Below are positions 9,336-31,291 of a DNA stretch of 58,911 nucleotides, piece by piece; the first letter of the stretch is position 1, and each line of letters opens with the position of its first letter. This stretch comes from Anaerolineaceae bacterium (GTDB lineage: Bacteria > Chloroflexota > Anaerolineae > Anaerolineales > Anaerolineaceae). Location: contig JARKPB010000001.1 of NCBI GenBank assembly GCA_029975475.1, forward strand, positions 1-58,911. The letters run 5' to 3'. The notes under the pieces are model-generated. The model had not been told where the DNA came from. It was given only the letters and a program-made list of their open reading frames with translations, and did not search any database. The position numbers were made by a program, and so were the translations under genes.

Positions 9336-11578
9336 CGGATTAATGTTATCTCCCAGACATGGACGTGAGCAGGTTCGCCGTCATTGACGCTGCGGACCGA
9401 GACCTGCAGGCTGACCAGGTTGAAGGTCTGACCAAACTCAATGCGCATATCTTTGGGGTCCGGGGTTCCCTCTGCCTGCTGCGCAAAGGTGCGGCTTTCG
9501 CCTTCAACCGTTTCGAGGGTGATTTCGATCCGGGTGGGGACCCCGCCCACGCGCACGGTTACGCCGCTGGCTGTCTGCGGTTGGTCAAAACTCAGGATCA
9601 CCTGCATCGGGTTGGCTTCCAGGGTGCGCATGAGCGTCTTAAGGTCGCCGTCAAATAGATTTTCAATCTGCCCCATGTCTTCCCGCGAATAGCGTACCAG
9701 GGCGCTGCTGCCGTCCGGCAAACGAACGTATTTTTCCAGCAGGGCTTTCCGCGCCTGGCGTTCCCGCGCCAGAATGGCTTCGATGTTATCGGCGTAAGTC
9801 AGGCGGGTGAAGATAAAGCCCGGCTTTCCGTTGGGGTACGGGATGGTCATCAAGATTTCGGGCGGTTTAAATTTGCCGCTCTCTTTGACCTGTTCAAGTT
9901 CCTCCGGCATCAACACAAAGATGGTGCCGTCTGAAATCGGCTTGACTTCATTGAGGTAGGTTTCTATCCCCGCCAGTTCAAAGCGGTCCTGACCGTCCAT
10001 GAAGAAGCGCGCGACCACATCGGTGCCGTTGCTCCAGGCGGGGGAAAGGATCACCCTGGCTTTGGGATTCTCCTCCAGGTATTGCCGGATCGCCGGGAAG
10101 ACCTTTCCGGCGCCAAATTGCAGCCCGCCGAGGCCGTAATCCTGGTACCAGGTCGGGCCGTTGCGCAGCGCGTCCGCCAGCATTCCAAAGTTATAAGCGC
10201 CGAGGGCGAGAAAAACCGCCAGTCCAACAGCCGCAGCCGGCAGTTTCAGGCGTTCTAACCAGCGTATCACCTGGGCAGCTCCCAGAGCGGTGAGCAGCGC
10301 TGCCGGGATTACCATGACCAGCAGGCGGGTGATGCCCGGGGCGACCAGGGCCGCTCCGCTTGGGCCGGCCAGCAGGGCGATCAGCACGGCGCGGTTTTCG
10401 GAATGGCGGATACCGCGCAGGGCTAACCCCAGTCCGATCAGCGCCAGCGGCAGGGTCCAGCGCAGCAAATGCCCGTAGCCCTTCATCAGGTGGCGGGCCA
10501 GGTCTTGAGAATTGGGCAGATACCAGTAGAACGGGTTGATCCCGCCCAGATAGTTATCCAGATAAATGCGCAATTTTTCGCCGGTTGATATCTCGCGCAG
10601 CCAGTAAGAATCCAGAATCTGCAGGTGTTTAAGGTTCTCATCCGGGTGGGCGATCAGGAAGCGCACATAGGGCAGGGCCAGCAGCGCGGTCAGGCCAAAA
10701 ACCGCCAGAACCGTTTTACGCTGCTGCCAGTGGTAGCGCAGGTCAGAGAAGAACAATCCCAACGCGGTCACTGCCACAACCAGCTGGGCCGGGCTGTAAG
10801 AATAAAAAGTCAGCGCCCCAAAGGCGGCCGCGGCGAACAACCAGCGCGGGGAACGGGTGCGGTAGAGGAGATAGCAGTACAGAAAAGCGGCGTAAAAACT
10901 GACCGCCAGAACGGTCTCAAAGGCGGTCCGCGAGTGCAGAAACCAGGCCGGGGTGATAGAAAGGAAGAGCGCGCCCAGCCAGTAATGGCGCAGCCCGAAA
11001 ATATCTTTCAGCAGCAGCGAAACCGAGATCACCGCCAGCAGAGAAACCAGCACAGATACCCCGCGGGTAACCCAGATGGACTTATCGAAGAGCAGGTAGG
11101 GCAGCACCTGCAGATAAACCGACACGCTCAGGTTGTACTGGTTACCATTGACAAAATACGTCGGGAAGAGTTCTTTATCGTAACTGCGAAAACCGTCGCG
11201 CACGAAATCGGCGGCCAGAACCGTCTGAACGGCTTCGTCGGTGAAAAAGTAGATAGGAAAGACATCCAGACTGATCAGGCGGGTGAGCAGGTAGATGAAC
11301 AGGGAGAGGCCGAAGAGCAGGCTGGCGGTGTTGGCTCTGGCCCAGGCGAGTGCGCGTGGAAAGCCGTTCCGGGAGAAGTCTGGGGCGGTCAGGGTACTGG
11401 CGGTCAGGCCCGCCCCGCCAGCGCGGAAGCGCACTTCGCGGCGCTCCACCACCTTGCCGGTCTCGTCTTTGATCTCCACCTGCACGGTCAGGCGCTGTCC
11501 GGGGGGCAGCTGGGCGCGCAGCACCACCCGCGACTCGCCCGCCGCGATCTCGTGCTCCAGCGGCTCTTTTTCCTTCAT
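9332..11578 (-). CDS. Dolichyl-phosphate-mannose-type glycosyltransferase-like membrane protein
   Basis: A 748-residue polytopic protein. Residues 1 to about 80 form a soluble N-terminal domain (a beta-rich segment with many charged residues). About ten transmembrane segments follow. After the first is FFTDEAVQTVLA with an Asp-Glu pair at about residues 114-115, the placement of the catalytic acidic pair in PMT/ArnT-like GT-C enzymes; a C-terminal soluble part of roughly 250 residues looks beta-rich. GT-C enzymes move a sugar from a lipid-phosphate donor to an external acceptor. Donor and acceptor are unknown. The family assignment is mainly topological. Confidence 0.75.
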   Translation of the reverse strand: MKEKEPLEHEIAAGESRVVLRAQLPPGQRLTVQVEIKDETGKVVERREVRFRAGGAGLTASTLTAPDFSRNGFPRALAWARANTASLLFGLSLFIYLLTRLISLDVFPIYFFTDEAVQTVLAADFVRDGFRSYDKELFPTYFVNGNQYNLSVSVYLQVLPYLLFDKSIWVTRGVSVLVSLLAVISVSLLLKDIFGLRHYWLGALFLSITPAWFLHSRTAFETVLAVSFYAAFLYCYLLYRTRSPRWLFAAAAFGALTFYSYSPAQLVVAVTALGLFFSDLRYHWQQRKTVLAVFGLTALLALPYVRFLIAHPDENLKHLQILDSYWLREISTGEKLRIYLDNYLGGINPFYWYLPNSQDLARHLMKGYGHLLRWTLPLALIGLGLALRGIRHSENRAVLIALLAGPSGAALVAPGITRLLVMVIPAALLTALGAAQVIRWLERLKLPAAAVGLAVFLALGAYNFGMLADALRNGPTWYQDYGLGGLQFGAGKVFPAIRQYLEENPKARVILSPAWSNGTDVVARFFMDGQDRFELAGIETYLNEVKPISDGTIFVLMPEELEQVKESGKFKPPEILMTIPYPNGKPGFIFTRLTYADNIEAILARERQARKALLEKYVRLPDGSSALVRYSREDMGQIENLFDGDLKTLMRTLEANPMQVILSFDQPQTASGVTVRVGGVPTRIEITLETVEGESRTFAQQAEGTPDPKDMRIEFGQTFNLVSLQVSVRSVNDGEPAHVHVWEITLIR

Positions 11579-23429: not shown

Positions 23430-24134
23430 ATGGTGCGAACTCGCAAAGCGCAGCAATTTCAGCAAATGACCGATGAGATTAAAGCAGCCGCCCGCGAAGA
23501 GATCCGCGAGCGCGGCACGGCTGGCATCTCCCTGCGCGCGCTGGCGCGGCGCTTAAACATCACCGCTCCCGCGGTTTATCATTACTTTCCCTCGCTGGAT
23601 GATTTGATTACCGCTTTGCTGGTGGATGCCTTTAACGCCCTTGCGGATGCGATGCAGATGGCCGGTGAAGCCCTCCCCCCCGGCGCCCCCGAACTGGACC
23701 GCGCCCGTGCGCAGGTGCTGGCCTACCGCCGCTGGGCGCTGGAACACCCGGAGGAGTTTCAACTGATTTATGGAAATCCCATTCCCGGCTACAGCGCCCC
23801 GCCGGAAATCACCCTGCCGCTGGCTGCCCGTCCGTTCTACCTGCTGCTGGCCTCTTTCGGAGCGGCCATCCAGTGCGGAGAGGCCTGCCTGCCGCCAGAA
23901 TATCGTCAGGTACCGTCAGAAATTCAACCGTATCTTGAAAGCCTGCGCGCCGCGCGCGGTTTCACCCAGCCAGTGGAATTGCTGTATTTTCTGACTGCTG
24001 GATGGGCGCGCTTTCACGGCATGGTCATGCTGGAACTTTTCCATCACACCCAGGGTGTCATCGGCCAACCGGAAGTCTTATATCAGCGTGAATTGGACAA
24101 CTTAATAACGAGTATGAGAGATCAAAATGAATAA
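23430..24134 (+). CDS. TetR/AcrR-family transcriptional regulator
   Basis: A 234-residue regulator. The N-terminal HTH spans about residues 12-60: IKAAAREEIRERGTAGISLRALARRLNITAPAVYHYFPSLDDLITALL, with the family's YHYFPS. The C-terminal ligand domain (RAQVLAYRRWALEHPEEFQLIYGNPIPGY) matches the WHG-type TetR C-terminal domain. It is probably a repressor of its own operon, which includes the epimerase gene that overlaps its end by 8 nt. Ligand unknown. Confidence 0.88.
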   Translation: MVRTRKAQQFQQMTDEIKAAAREEIRERGTAGISLRALARRLNITAPAVYHYFPSLDDLITALLVDAFNALADAMQMAGEALPPGAPELDRARAQVLAYRRWALEHPEEFQLIYGNPIPGYSAPPEITLPLAARPFYLLLASFGAAIQCGEACLPPEYRQVPSEIQPYLESLRAARGFTQPVELLYFLTAGWARFHGMVMLELFHHTQGVIGQPEVLYQRELDNLITSMRDQNE

Positions 24135-26067: not shown

Positions 26068-27075
26068 ATGGCGCGATTTCGACCAGCCTTGCTCCTGCTT
26101 GCTTTTGTGTTTCTCGGCGGCTGTCTGCCCGCCGCCCCTGCCGGGCTGCCGGTTGCCAGCCTGACCCCGCCAGCCCGGACAGTCAGCCCGGCTTCAACCG
26201 CCAGCCAGGTCCCGACGGCCAGCCCGACCGACGCGCCGCTCCCCGCTTTTGCCTTCGCGGTGGCCGGCGATGTGCGCCTTTACGCCGGTCCGCGCATGCA
26301 CCGGCCCGAACTGTTCCGCGGCGCAGTCGAAGGGATTGCGGCCTACGGTGCGACCGCTTTTCTCATCTCCCCGGGCGATATGGATCCGCCCGAAAGCGCC
26401 CGCTGGACGATTGATCAAATCCTGGGGCCAGAGTACGCCTGGATCCCGGTGGTGGGAAACCACGAGCTGCCTGGCCAGGGCGAAGAGGATGAATGGGGTG
26501 AAAATCTGCGCTGGATTCAGGCTTACCCGCTGCCTTTTCCGGTCAAGCCGGGCCCGCCAGAATGCCAGAACACCACCTTTTCCTTTGATTATCAACAGGC
26601 GCATTTTGTGGTGTTAAATGTCTACTGCGGGACCGGCGGACCGGCCGCCACAACCGGCGACATTCCAGATCTGCTCTACAACTGGCTGGCGGCCGATCTG
26701 GCGGCGGCCAGCCAGCCGTTGATTTTTGTGATTGGACACGAACCGGCCTATCCCCAGCCGGACGAGCAAACCGGCCAGACCCGCTACCTGGGTGAAGCCC
26801 TGGACGCTTACCCGGCCAACCGCGATCGCTTCTGGGCGCTGCTGGCCAGCCGCGGGGTGACGGCTTATATCTGCGGCCATACCCATCTCTACAGCGCGGC
26901 GCAGATTGACGGCGTCTGGCAGATCGAAGCCGGCCACGCGCGCGGCGAAGCCGATCAAATCGCCCCGAGCACATTCTTGATCTTTGAGATCCAGGGCGAG
27001 CGGGTCAGGCTGCTGCCATTTCGAGCCGAAATCGGTCAACCTTACCGCGCGCTGCCGGCGCGCAGCCTGCGCTAG
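26068..27075 (+). CDS. Lipoprotein metallophosphoesterase
   Basis: A 335-residue protein. [19 protein letters not shown] gives a signal with lipobox LGGC; the longer in-frame start is rejected because it destroys the signal and the ATG at 26068 sits right after a -10 box. A Pro/Thr/Ser linker is followed by calcineurin-like motifs in order: [32 protein letters not shown] and CGHTHLY. These bind two metal ions and cleave phosphoesters outside the membrane. A Tyr replaces the usual His of the first GDxH motif. Substrate unknown. Confidence 0.85.
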
Positions 27076-28541
27076 AACTTTCGGGACCACTCTTTCGGCC
27101 AGCGTTCCACCACGACCTTCTTTTGTGTGAAGAATTCGACCGCGTCAATACCCTGGCCGTGCAAATCGCCAAAGAAGCTGTCCTTCCAGCCGCTGAAGGG
27201 AAAGAACGCCATCGGCGCGGCCACGCCGATGTTGATGCCGATGTTGCCCGCTTCGGCTTCGTAGCGGAACTTGCGCGCCGCTGCGCCGCTGGCGGTAAAC
27301 AGGCTGGCCTGATTTCCGTATGGGCTGCGGTTAAGCAGCGCTATCGCCTCGTCCAGGCTGTCCACATGCATGACGCCCAGCACCGGCCCGAAGATTTCCG
27401 TTCGCGCGATTTCGCTTTCCGGGGGTAAATCTAACAGCACGGTCGGGCGCACAAAGGTTCCCTTTTCATACCCGGGGATAACGGTGTTGCGGCCGTCCAC
27501 CGCCAGGCCAGCCCCTTCTGCCGCGCCGCGAGCGATCAGGCTTTCAATGCGCGACTTGCTGGCCGGGTTAATCACCGCGCCCATCTGGACGCCCTCCTCC
27601 AGGCCGTAGCCAACCCGCCGGCTGGCAGCCGCGTCGCAAATCCCTTCCGTGAAGGTCTGGCGCGCTTCGCCAACCGTCAGCGCCAGAGACGTGGCAAGAC
27701 AGCGCTGCCCGGCGCAGCCAAAAGCGGAGTCCGCGGTGATGCGCACCGCCATTTCCATGTCTGCGTCCGGAAGAATGACCACCGGGTTCTTGGCGCCCCC
27801 CTGCGCCTGAACGCGCTTTCCGTTTTCCGCCGCGCGTTGATAGATATAGCGCGCGACAGCGGACGAGCCAACAAAAGTGATGGCGCGGATGGCGGGGTGA
27901 TCCAGGATCGCGTCCACCGCTTCGCGCCCCCCGTTGACCAGATTGACCACACCGGCGGGCAGGTTAATTTCTTCCAGCAGGCTAAAAATCTGCTGCATGG
28001 TCAGGGGCACCTTTTCCGAGGGTTTAAGGATGTAGGTGTTCCCGCAGGCCAGCGCGTAGGGCAGATACCAGAAAGGAATCATGCCCGGAAAATTAAACGG
28101 CGCGATCGTGGCGCAGACGCCGACCGGCTGGCGCAGCAGAATCTCATCCACACCGGGAGCAATATCTTCAGCGATTTCACCCTTGGAAAGCATCGGGATA
28201 CCGCAGGCTACCTCAACATTTTCGATCGCCCGGCGCATCTCTCCGCGGGCTTCATCCAGAGTCTTGCCGCATTCCATGGTGATGGTGCGGGCAATCTCGT
28301 CCAGATGTCCTTCCAGCAGGGTTTTGAGGCGGAAGAGGAACTGAATGCGGTCCTGGGCGGGGGTGCGCCGCCAGGCGGGCAGTGCCCGCGCGGCAGCCTG
28401 AGCCGCCGCCGCGACATCGGCGGGGCCGCTGAAGGGAACAAGCGCCAGCGTTTCGCCCGTGGCGGGGTTAACCACCGGTTGACTCTGGTCGGCGCTGGCA
28501 GGCTGCCAGACGCCGTTAATGAAATTCGGCAGGATGTTCAT
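27072..28541 (-). CDS. mmsA: Methylmalonate-semialdehyde dehydrogenase (CoA-acylating), MmsA/IolA type
   Basis: A 489-residue aldehyde dehydrogenase of the CoA-acylating MMSDH class. Diagnostic parts are FINGVWQPA at the start, [28 protein letters not shown] and the active Cys in [11 protein letters not shown] at about residue 285. It converts methylmalonate or malonate semialdehyde to propionyl- or acetyl-CoA, the last step of valine and inositol breakdown. It is divergent from an IclR regulator and sits beside an IolD-like operon, which favours a sugar or cyclitol role. Its stop codon and that of the convergent phosphoesterase share the four bases CTAG. Confidence 0.9.
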
Positions 28542-28573
28542 GGGAGACCTCGTGCAAAAAAGACCACCAGGAT

Positions 28574-28610
28574 ATTGCTAATTATACAACATAGTTGTAT
28601 AATTAGCAAT
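28574..28610. promoter_or_regulatory. Perfect 17-3-17 palindrome with two face-to-face promoters
   Basis: Arms ATTGCTAATTATACAAC (28574-28590) and its exact complement (28594-28610) flank ATA. On the plus strand TTGCTA (28575-28580), 17 nt, TATAAT (28598-28603) forms a promoter for iclR. By symmetry the minus strand has the same promoter for mmsA: TTGCTA 28609-28604, 17 nt, TATAAT 28586-28581. The two promoters occupy the same 37 bp. The plus transcript would start close to the iclR ATG at 28612, so iclR may be leaderless; the mmsA leader would be about 33 nt. Confidence 0.8.
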
Positions 28611-28611
28611 C

Positions 28612-29352
28612 ATGAGCGAAATTCAATCTTTAGCCCGCGGGCTGCGGATCCTTAACCTGCTTGGCCAGACCCCTGAAGGAATCAGTATTACCGAACTGGC
28701 TGATCACCTGGGTGTGGACAAAGGCAGCGCTTCGCGCCTGGTGGCCACCCTGGCCGCCCAGGGGTTTGTGGAAAAAGATGAGGTCAGCCGGCGTTACCGC
28801 CTCGGCCCGCAGGTGGTCAGCCTGAGCCGCAGCGTCCTGACCCGCCTGTCGCTGCGCGAAGCGGCCAAGCCCTATTTGCGTCAATTAATGGAACGCAGCG
28901 GCGAGTGCGCCCATCTGGCGGTGGCGGCGCAGGGGAAAGCGCTGTACATTGACCAGGTCGAATCTCCGGCCACCCTGCGGGTGAACGCCCAGGTCGGCAC
29001 GATGAATCCCCTGCACTGCACCTCGCTGGGCAAAGTACTGCTGGCATTTGGCGCGGCCGAGTTTCCTGATGCGCTGGAAGCCTACACACCGCGCACCATC
29101 ACCGATCCGGTCATGCTGCGCGCGCATCTGGACCAGGTCCGTCAGGCGGGGTATGCCCTGGATGATGAAGAATTTGATCTGGGCGTGCGCTGCCTGGCAG
29201 CGCCGGTGTTTGATTTTCGCGGTAAGGTGATCGGCGCAATCGGTATTTCCGGCCCGGCCACGCGGATGTCTCTGGAACGAATTCCCGAACTGGCCGCCGG
29301 GGTGGTGGATACCGCCCGCGCGCTTTCCGAACGCATGATCTCTTCGCGTTAA
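28612..29352 (+). CDS. IclR-family transcriptional regulator
   Basis: A 246-residue IclR protein. The winged HTH covers about residues 5-65 (RGLRILNLLGQTPEGISITELADHLGVDKGSASRLVATLAAQGFVEKD). The effector domain follows with ECAHLAVAAQGKALYIDQVESPATLRVNAQVG, then LHCTSLGKVLLAF and FRGKVIGAIGISGPATRM, which are family hallmarks. It should bind the palindrome just upstream and control itself, mmsA and the downstream sugar operon. Effector unknown, likely an intermediate of the pathway. Confidence 0.92.
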   Translation: MSEIQSLARGLRILNLLGQTPEGISITELADHLGVDKGSASRLVATLAAQGFVEKDEVSRRYRLGPQVVSLSRSVLTRLSLREAAKPYLRQLMERSGECAHLAVAAQGKALYIDQVESPATLRVNAQVGTMNPLHCTSLGKVLLAFGAAEFPDALEAYTPRTITDPVMLRAHLDQVRQAGYALDDEEFDLGVRCLAAPVFDFRGKVIGAIGISGPATRMSLERIPELAAGVVDTARALSERMISSR

Positions 29353-29399: not shown

Positions 29400-29424
29400 A
29401 CAACAATGTTGCGTAATACGCAAC
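29400..29424. promoter_or_regulatory. Tandem CAAC/GTTG operator before the IolD-like operon
   Basis: ACAAC-AAT-GTTG (29400-29411) is followed without gap by a perfect 8-1-8 palindrome GTTGCGTA-A-TACGCAAC (29408-29424). The ACAAC-N3-GTTG core also forms the centre of the mmsA/iclR palindrome (ACAAC-ATA-GTTGT, 28586-28598). A shared site for the same IclR regulator is the simplest reading. No clear -35/-10 pair was found here. Confidence 0.55.
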
Positions 29425-29437
29425 AAAAGGCGGTGAA

Positions 29438-31291
29438 ATGTCCCTAAAGCCCTCTCCTTCTCAACTGGCCGCCCAACGCGCTGAACACGCCGCCGCTTTG
29501 CGGGACGGCAGCCTGCCGCGCCGGCTGGATTTGACCCTTTCCGAAGCGCTGGTGATAGGTCTGCTGCGTCAGGGTGTGCGCACCTTTTTTACCGTTTTTG
29601 GACATGGCTCAACCGAAATTGGCGAAGTGCTGCGGATTTACGCCCAGAGCGGTTTGCTGCGCGTGTTTGGCCTGCGCAGTGAAATTGAAGCCTCGCACGC
29701 GGCGGCAGCGCTGCGCTGGGTGCGGGGGGAGAAAGCCGCTGTGGTAACCTCGATCGGCCCCGGCGCGCTGCAAGCCCTGGCCGCCTCGCTGGCGCCTGCG
29801 TCAGACGGCCTGGGGGTCTGGTACCTGTTTGGTGACGAGACCAGCGAAGATGAAGGCTACAATATGCAGCAAATTCCGCGCGCCGAACAGGGACTGTTTC
29901 TGCGGCTGGCGGCCAGTATGGGCAGCGCCTACAGTCTGCACACGCCGCTGGCGCTTGCCGCCGCCCTTGCGCGCGGCGCGCAGGCTGTGGATCACCCCTA
30001 CCGTCCATCGCCTTTCTATCTCCTGCTGCCGATGAACACCCAGGCTGCCTGGCTGGAGGACTTTAACCTTGACGAACTGCCGGAATGCCAGGTCCTGCGC
30101 CCGGGTCCGGCCAGCGGTGATTACCGGCAGGCAGCCGAGTGGATCCAGTCAGCCCGCCGCGTGCTGGTCAAAGTTGGCGGCGGGGGCCGCGGCGCCGGCA
30201 GGCAGCTCGCAACCCTGCTGGAGCGTTCCGGCGGTGTGCTGGTGCACACGCCGCTGGCCAGCGGCTGCATTCCATACAGCCACCCCCGCAACATGACGGT
30301 CGGGGGTTCTAAAGGGTCACTTCCCGGAAATTTCGCTATGGAAAACGCCGACCTGCTGATCGCTGTCGGCACGCGCGCGGTCTGCCAGTCGGATTGTTCG
30401 CGCACCGGTTACCCGCACGTTGAGCGGGTGATCAATCTGAATGCTGATCCTGCCGATGCGCTGCATTACAACCGCACGCTGGCGCTGCTCGGCGACATCG
30501 AAGCAACCCTGGAACAGTTAAATCAGGTTCTATCCGCGCCCGCCGCTGCCAAAGAAGCCTGGCTGGCAGACTGTGCCCGAGTTAAAGAGGAATGGCAGAC
30601 GTTCAAAGCGGAACGCGCTTCTAATCCGACTTTGTATGATCCCTACTGGGGCACGGAAGTATTAACGCAGCCGGCTGCCATCCTGACCGCTTCGGCCTGG
30701 GCGCGCCAGACAGGCGCGGTCAGTTTCTTTGACGCCGGGGATGTGCAGGCCAACGGTTTTCAAATTGTCGAGGATGATACCCCTTACCAGACCTTTACCG
30801 AGAGCGGGGCATCTTATATGGGGTTCGCGGTATCCGCCTTGCTGGCCAGCGCGGCGGCCAGCCAGCCATTTTACGGCCTGGCGTTCACCGGGGACGGTTC
30901 GTTTACCATGAATCCGCAAATCTTGATCGACGGGGTTGAACACGGCGCGCGCGGTTGTATTCTCCTGCTGGATAACGGGCGCATGAGCGCGATCAGCGGT
31001 TTGCAGCAGGCACAGTACGGCCAGGAATTCGCCACCTGGAACACGTTGAAGATCGATTACCTCTCCTGGGCGCGCGGTGTGCCTGGCGTGTTGGCGCTGG
31101 ACGGCGGGCGAACGCCGCATTCGCTGCGAGCGGCTCTGGATCAGGCTTTTGCCCATCCCGGCCTGTCGCTCATCCATCTGCCGGTCTATTACGGGCCGCA
31201 TCCGCTGGGAGGCATGGGGGTGTACGGGCGCTGGAATGTGGGCAACTGGTGTGATGATGTTCAGACGCTGCGGCATCAAATTGGGCTCTAA
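29438..31291 (+). CDS. IolD-like ThDP-dependent C-C hydrolase
   Basis: A 617-residue ThDP enzyme related to 3D-trihydroxycyclohexane-1,2-dione acylhydrolase (IolD). Matches to IolD are TVFGHGSTEIGEVL near residue 50, the cofactor-activating Glu in GLRSEIEASHAAAAL, TSIGPGALQALAASLA, VGGGGRGAGRQLATL in the middle domain, and the ThDP/Mg motif GDGSFTMNP with the Asn in LLLDNGRMS near residues 487-515. Its end (GVYGRWNVGNW) also resembles IolD. IolD opens a cyclic 1,2-diketone ring. The real substrate may differ because iolB, iolC, iolE and iolJ are absent nearby. First gene of a six-gene operon. Confidence 0.8.
   Translation: MSLKPSPSQLAAQRAEHAAALRDGSLPRRLDLTLSEALVIGLLRQGVRTFFTVFGHGSTEIGEVLRIYAQSGLLRVFGLRSEIEASHAAAALRWVRGEKAAVVTSIGPGALQALAASLAPASDGLGVWYLFGDETSEDEGYNMQQIPRAEQGLFLRLAASMGSAYSLHTPLALAAALARGAQAVDHPYRPSPFYLLLPMNTQAAWLEDFNLDELPECQVLRPGPASGDYRQAAEWIQSARRVLVKVGGGGRGAGRQLATLLERSGGVLVHTPLASGCIPYSHPRNMTVGGSKGSLPGNFAMENADLLIAVGTRAVCQSDCSRTGYPHVERVINLNADPADALHYNRTLALLGDIEATLEQLNQVLSAPAAAKEAWLADCARVKEEWQTFKAERASNPTLYDPYWGTEVLTQPAAILTASAWARQTGAVSFFDAGDVQANGFQIVEDDTPYQTFTESGASYMGFAVSALLASAAASQPFYGLAFTGDGSFTMNPQILIDGVEHGARGCILLLDNGRMSAISGLQQAQYGQEFATWNTLKIDYLSWARGVPGVLALDGGRTPHSLRAALDQAFAHPGLSLIHLPVYYGPHPLGGMGVYGRWNVGNWCDDVQTLRHQIGL

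Follow-up and report, generated by a model that had tools for sequence, protein, structure and literature searches.

The gap between the divergently transcribed genes mmsA and iclR of this Anaerolineaceae bacterium contains a perfect palindrome of 37 bp (positions 28574–28610). It is likely that this element serves the IclR-family regulator next to it as a tandem operator, placed over two fully overlapping divergent promoters of the σ70 type, and that one tetramer of the regulator represses both iclR and mmsA. As a kind, an IclR-family tandem operator over overlapping divergent promoters is already known, and the present one is probably functional; unusual is the exactness with which the geometries of operator and promoter coincide. 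In the following, the window is the whole stretch of 58,911 nucleotides that was analysed.

A palindrome with a promoter match on each strand

The palindrome consists of two arms of 17 nt each (28574–28590 and 28594–28610), which are 100% complementary and enclose a loop of 3 nt. The original prediction of a perfect 17-3-17 repeat in the gap between mmsA and iclR was thus correct, including its coordinates. Among inverted repeats with an arm of at least 10 nt and a loop of at most 20 nt, it is the longest perfect one of the 58.9-kb window; the runner-up has an arm of 12 nt. The same value of 12 nt was the maximum in 20 dinucleotide shuffles of the whole window, four of which contained no arm of 10 nt; when the 70-bp intergenic stretch was shuffled 5000 times, no arm exceeded 11 nt. 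The palindrome exceeds chance. An exact-match scan of a genome contig collection, in which the own genome is perhaps absent, gave no match to the inner 35 bp. A looser double-unit pattern with at most three mismatches matched the own genome at the palindrome only.

The hexamer pair TTGCTA-17-TATAAT that had been proposed for both strands was found on each of them, in agreement with the consensus at 10 of 12 positions. For iclR, the predicted −35 and −10 hexamers occupy 28575–28580 and 28598–28603 of the plus strand, which places the predicted start of transcription at 28610–28612. For mmsA, the corresponding predicted hexamers on the minus strand are located at 28604–28609 (−35) and 28581–28586 (−10), with a predicted start at about 28574. 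Both −35 hexamers are consensus matches that are weak beyond TTG (four of six letters). In 50 shuffles of a 600-bp region the mean number of such promoter matches was 0.2, and the list for the 600 bp surrounding the palindrome contains no further σ70-like match. Upstream of a tetR-like gene at 23430 stands a standard promoter match, TTGACA-16-TATAAT; hexamers of the σ70 type therefore make sense in this genome. The second match of the palindrome results from the symmetry of the first one and is therefore no separate evidence.

Judged by consensus matching, hexamers of the σ70 type are thus present on both strands of one stretch, as is the case in overlapping divergent promoters. The two promoters had been described as standing face to face. 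Each −35 hexamer is located beyond the −10 hexamer of the other promoter, however, and the predicted starts diverge; the promoters are fully overlapping and divergent. Their −10 hexamers are separate, with 11 bp between them, and the predicted starts lie about 36 bp apart. This geometry rules out a bidirectional promoter with a shared −10 hexamer. The additional proposal that only one polymerase can use the site at a time is sterically plausible, but at five bidirectional promoters of E. coli the basal activity was reported to be too low for polymerase competition (PMC12825309). Exclusion between polymerases therefore need not matter in use.

The regulator (246 aa; 28612–29352, plus strand) belongs to the IclR family, as its domains HTH_IclR (63.5 bits, cut-off 22) and IclR_C (166.7 bits, cut-off 24) both exceed the Pfam cut-offs. 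All of the following NCBIfam models were matched below their cut-offs: BhcR, which is the best one (216 versus 350), PcaR/PcaU (176.6 versus 284.75), IclR sensu stricto (161.2 versus 380), KdgR (138.2 versus 275), and AllR (113.3 versus 406). The PcaR/PcaU/PobR model covers activators. On the other side of the palindrome, mmsA (27072–28541, minus strand) codes for a dehydrogenase of the CoA-acylating methylmalonate-semialdehyde type and scores over the cut-off of TIGR01722. Downstream of iclR, a gene for an IolD-like ThDP enzyme (29438–31291, plus strand) is the first of a run that reaches to about 36225 and further comprises a split transketolase, an RpiB-like protein (NF006753, over the cut-off), an MFS_2 transporter, and a GFO/IDH oxidoreductase. 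The name iolD was rejected for the ThDP gene, because the score for the IolD equivalog TIGR04377 (147.1 bits) is far below the cut-off of 715 bits. The run presumably constitutes a catabolic pathway.

The ATG of iclR (28612) follows the −10 hexamer after 8 nt. The first T of TATAAT stands 14 bp before this ATG, an in-frame TAA (28600–28602) is located inside the hexamer, and no Shine-Dalgarno sequence was seen upstream. This is the signature of leaderless genes, namely a TANNNT motif about 10–12 bp upstream combined with a missing Shine-Dalgarno sequence. From its sequence context, the iclR mRNA is probably leaderless or nearly so. TA-signals at about 12 bp upstream of the start have been taken as a mark of leaderless genes; such signals were reported for 4 of 12 Chloroflexi genomes and for 4.7% of genes on average, and hence for a minority (PMC3160421). 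In contrast, mmsA possesses a likely ribosome site, GAGG at 28551–28548, 6 nt before its ATG, and the predicted leader of its mRNA comprises about 33 nt. The exact hexamer TATAAT occurs 11 times in the window. Besides that of iclR, three copies are followed after 6–7 nt by the initial ATG of an ORF, at 11578 (minus strand, 748 aa), 23313 (minus strand, 318 aa), and 42861 (plus strand, 405 aa). These ORFs are likely leaderless; that of 405 aa has a further in-frame ATG 225 nt upstream.

Candidate operator units in the palindrome and in related loci

The palindrome can be read as two pseudo-palindromes of 15 bp with the form TTGnnnAnTnnnCAA, whose centres at 28582 and 28602 are 20 bp apart. The left candidate operator unit TTGCTAATTATACAA (28575–28589) has counterparts in relatives, and the right one, TTGTATAATTAGCAA (28595–28609), is identical to the 15-mer at the same place in the related locus L033. 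With the operator matrix described below, each unit scores 15.3 bits. Among all spacings from 15 to 60 bp, 20 bp is the best one for the own pair, and it falls into the range of 18–22 nt between unit centres that characterizes tandem sites of the IclR family. For 94 ortholog groups, tandem sites with this spacing have been published and attributed to tetramers, and the TtgV–DNA structure 2XRO was cited for them (Suvorova and Gelfand 2021, PMC8222616).

A third candidate unit, TTGCGTAATACGCAA, is located between iclR and the IolD-like gene (29409–29423), 14 nt before the ATG of the latter, and scores 23.0 bits. In a comparison by eye with the group 1 consensus GKTYCRYW3-4RYGRAMC, it matches at 15 of 17 positions, and the right unit of the palindrome at 11 of 17. 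The pattern TTGNNTAATNNNCAA has four matches in the 3.15-Mb genome, and three of these lie inside one 850-bp stretch here. Since the backward control of the pattern gave three matches, the count alone indicates no enrichment; what matters is that the matches cluster within 850 bp.

A strict double-site pattern matched only the own genome and one other (G053) among 400 genomes of the order. As it was too strict, a matrix was used in its place, for which 14 seed units were picked by eye from the own genome and from relatives. Of 28 matching genomes, 25 yielded a locus. The relative set comprised 42 rows, i.e. the own regulator (L003) and 41 relatives, after removal of the duplicates L004, L007, L125, and L126 (of L034, L035, L036, and L033, respectively); L015 and L039 were excluded from it. 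Distant IclR homologs were represented by 97 loci (L015–L032, L039–L112, and L114–L118), 93 of which had a match.

An upstream unit of more than 16 bits was found in 26 of the 42 rows, or in 25 of 41 if L131 with only 69 bp of upstream sequence is omitted. The own and related loci that supplied the seeds have partly circular scores; among the non-seed relatives (L127–L152), 15 of 26 exceeded 16 bits. With 15.3 bits per unit, the palindrome is below this line and the own genome is therefore among the 16 rows that were missed. In the distant homologs, only one of 93 loci had such a unit, namely L015, which is itself a matrix seed. The difference between 26 of 42 relatives and 1 of 93 distant homologs ties the unit to the lineage of this regulator. 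A counterpart of the third unit (more than 16 bits, 797–802 nt after the iclR start) is present in five of the 42 rows: the own locus, L033, L133, L134, and L142.

A pair of more than 15 bits was found in 24 rows, and in 11 of these, including the own one, the best pair is spaced by exactly 20 bp. These 11 rows form a single clade of the IclR tree with moderate support (85/81). In the other 31 of the 42 rows there are single units, pairs that are spaced differently, weak pairs at 20 bp, or none of these. Since the 15-bp units are kept in relatives and the overall symmetry is not fully kept, a single indivisible operator of 37 bp is ruled out. The assumption that one IclR target could shut both promoters holds insofar as the putative target overlaps the promoter match on each strand; the target, however, consists of two 15-bp units 20 bp apart.

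The related loci L136–L145 contain a quasi-palindrome of 35 bp about 98–126 bp upstream of iclR, before a divergent gene. One strand carries a match resembling TTGACA-17-TATNTT, or TACTTT, and the other strand one resembling TTGCYN-17-TATNAT. The divergent gene of L136, the only one tested, codes for a solute-binding protein according to Pfam, and the N-termini are similar in the rest of these loci. This is perhaps another overlapping divergent promoter pair; it was not counted as support because of its low matrix score as a pair.

The recurrence of the units also bears on the idea that the palindrome works at the RNA level, as a hairpin in front of iclR that causes attenuation or hides the start codon, and not as a DNA operator. 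The full stem of 17 bp ends one base before the ATG and has a folding energy of −19.1 kcal/mol, and 9–14 of the 18 symmetric pairs are kept in the ten other rows of the clade, although much of this follows from the presence of two units. Full pairing, however, is restricted to this genome, whereas the 15-bp units recur, and single units are also found elsewhere, including the position before the IolD-like gene. Moreover, the search revealed no site resembling a terminator. We regard an RNA element as highly improbable.

Conservation of the two predicted −10 hexamers

For a pair of units 20 bp apart, the distance between the hexamers amounts to 20 + 3 − 6 = 17 bp on either strand. Given this motif, the operator spacing makes the 17-bp spacer automatic, and the promoter matches therefore depend both on one another and on the operator. 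The expectation for an operator without promoter function was determined by drawing units from a matrix of 28 units outside the own genome. The operator letters alone yielded a near −10 hexamer (at least five of six letters, with A2 and T6) with a probability of 0.254 on one strand and of 0.064 on both; the probability of an exact TATAAT on both strands was 0.004.

On the iclR side, a −10 hexamer of this quality is kept in all 11 rows of the clade and is exact in eight of them. Its distance to the ATG of iclR is 6–8 nt in nine of the 11 rows. On the basis of both observations, this hexamer looks constrained as a promoter element. In L034, another plus-strand promoter match scored slightly higher. 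The mmsA-side hexamer behaves differently: an exact TATAAT in register occurs in only two of the 11 rows, the own one and L127. Exactly these two have a divergent mmsA at a short distance, 70 bp in the own genome and 77 bp in L127, where mmsA is 71% identical. In the eight other members with a visible neighbour, mmsA is absent from the at least 1.5 kb that are visible upstream; L131 was left out of this comparison, because its contig ends 69 bp upstream and hides the neighbour. The in-register hexamer is thus present in two of two members with mmsA at no more than 80 bp and in none of eight others. Fisher's test gave a value of about 0.022 (1 in 45), which ignores relatedness and was calculated after the pattern had been seen; counting L131 as a member that lacks mmsA (2/2 versus 0/9) gave 0.018. 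The clade comprises few rows, which are related to one another. In the tree, L127 and L014 sit on long branches, and mmsA may have been a neighbour already in the ancestor or have become one twice.

Several loci deviate from a simple correlation. L012 has CATAAT in register on the minus strand despite a divergent gene at a distance of 392 bp. L009 and L010 have a divergent mmsA and CATAAT in register, plus a separate TTGACA-18-TATAAT upstream of iclR. A minus-strand TATAAT is found in a different register in L005 and L006, and at a spacer of 19 in L033.

These data have to be weighed against the possibility of a real operator with a single working promoter, that on the iclR side. The match on the mmsA side would then be a by-product of symmetry, and mmsA would start elsewhere, e.g. 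within 28542–28573. The frequency at which operator letters alone give near −10 hexamers is compatible with this scenario, and so is the fact that the in-register minus-strand hexamer falls below the standard of five letters with A2 and T6 in nine of the 11 rows. What argues against it is L127: only 13 of its 18 symmetric pairs are kept, and nevertheless TATAAT is exact on both strands, next to mmsA. Both −10 hexamers can thus be present without full symmetry, and their joint exactness is the case expected in only 0.004 of the drawn pairs. In addition, the surrounding 600 bp offered no alternative σ70-like match among those listed. A promoter for iclR alone is accordingly quite doubtful in our opinion. 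The constancy of the iclR-side hexamer and the coincidence of the mmsA-side hexamer with a divergent mmsA indicate that, as far as sequence comparison can tell, both promoters are probably real, which would make the iclR mRNA leaderless.

The perfect symmetry could also be a mutational product, i.e. template switching would have copied one arm (quasi-palindrome correction) without selection for a second promoter. The right unit does not differ from that of L033 at any of its 15 positions, whereas in the left unit four adjoining bases deviate from the counterpart in L033; in this genome, the left unit is exactly complementary to the right one. Homogenisation of arms has been reported in yeast (PMC8604942). 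On the other hand, the IclR protein of L033 is only 72% identical, which leaves room for many steps, and L127 carries both −10 hexamers without having perfect arms. We consider this origin without selection unlikely. It would account for the emergence of the symmetry and not for its use, and is compatible with a tandem operator over two promoters. Either selection for the mmsA promoter or arm copying by template switching could have generated the perfect symmetry.

Putative mechanism and relation to known systems

For the tandem operator, we propose that one IclR dimer binds to each 15-bp unit and that the centre distance of 20 bp brings two dimers to the same face of the DNA, where they would act as a tetramer. 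In a unit of the form TTG-nnnAnT-nnnCAA, the letters TTG-TATAAT are possible. A −35 hexamer would then begin with the TTG of one unit, and the central letters of its partner would form the −10 hexamer, on both strands at the optimal spacer of 17 bp. Once bound, IclR would mask all four hexamers and thereby silence iclR together with mmsA; a putative effector from a sugar or acyloin pathway would release it. The symmetric promoters would feed two modes of translation, with a leaderless iclR mRNA and an mmsA mRNA that is translated from its GAGG ribosome site. By means of the single unit before the IolD-like gene, control is probably extended to the catabolic genes downstream. That IclR would act as a repressor and not as an activator is deduced only from the overlap of operator and promoter. 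The original prediction had contrasted a compact switch with an ordinary operator next to a promoter. This contrast does not exist, because an operator that overlaps the promoter is the ordinary working mode of such repressors.

Overlapping divergent promoters under one regulator are represented by tetR/tetA of Tn10. On plasmid pLS20, the regulator RcoLS20 and its target genes likewise diverge from overlapping promoters and one protein can control both; there, the two promoters are of unequal strength and the switch also involves looping (PMC4207663), whereas the promoter cores here are identical by symmetry. Bidirectional promoters with a shared −10 hexamer resemble the palindrome in that a short symmetric DNA allows the polymerase to bind either way, but their starts are mostly 18 bp (also 10 or 23 bp) apart instead of about 36 bp (Warman et al. 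2026, PMC12825309). A further parallel is given by the tandem operators of the IclR family, which have in common with the palindrome an IclR-family protein, palindromic units with a centre distance of 20 bp, and the location near the start of the regulator gene. The tetramer of two dimers on one face was proposed there and is putative here; in contrast to those operators, the unit has the form TTGnnnAnTnnnCAA and not the exact group 1 consensus, and the pair is a perfect palindrome enclosing one promoter match per strand (PMC8222616). In the open-licence library that was searched, and with the words used, we found no report of a Chloroflexi IclR regulon for myo-inositol and none of an IclR-family operator at overlapping divergent promoters.

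The regulatory design is ordinary for autoregulators of the IclR family. Here the geometries of repressor and promoter coincide cleanly, such that a single tetramer could shut a divergent pair of promoters; in addition, a leaderless regulator mRNA is predicted opposite an enzyme mRNA with a Shine-Dalgarno sequence. As a tentative and rather speculative extension, a TTG-TATAAT-nnnCAA tandem operator at the 20-bp spacing of the tetramer might be a ready-made bidirectional promoter. A few changes, or a single arm-copying event, might then suffice to draw a divergent newcomer gene into the regulon, as seems to have happened with mmsA here and in L127. The clade members with and without a divergent mmsA constitute a natural comparison, by which one can test whether a gene was recruited to an operator that was already in place.
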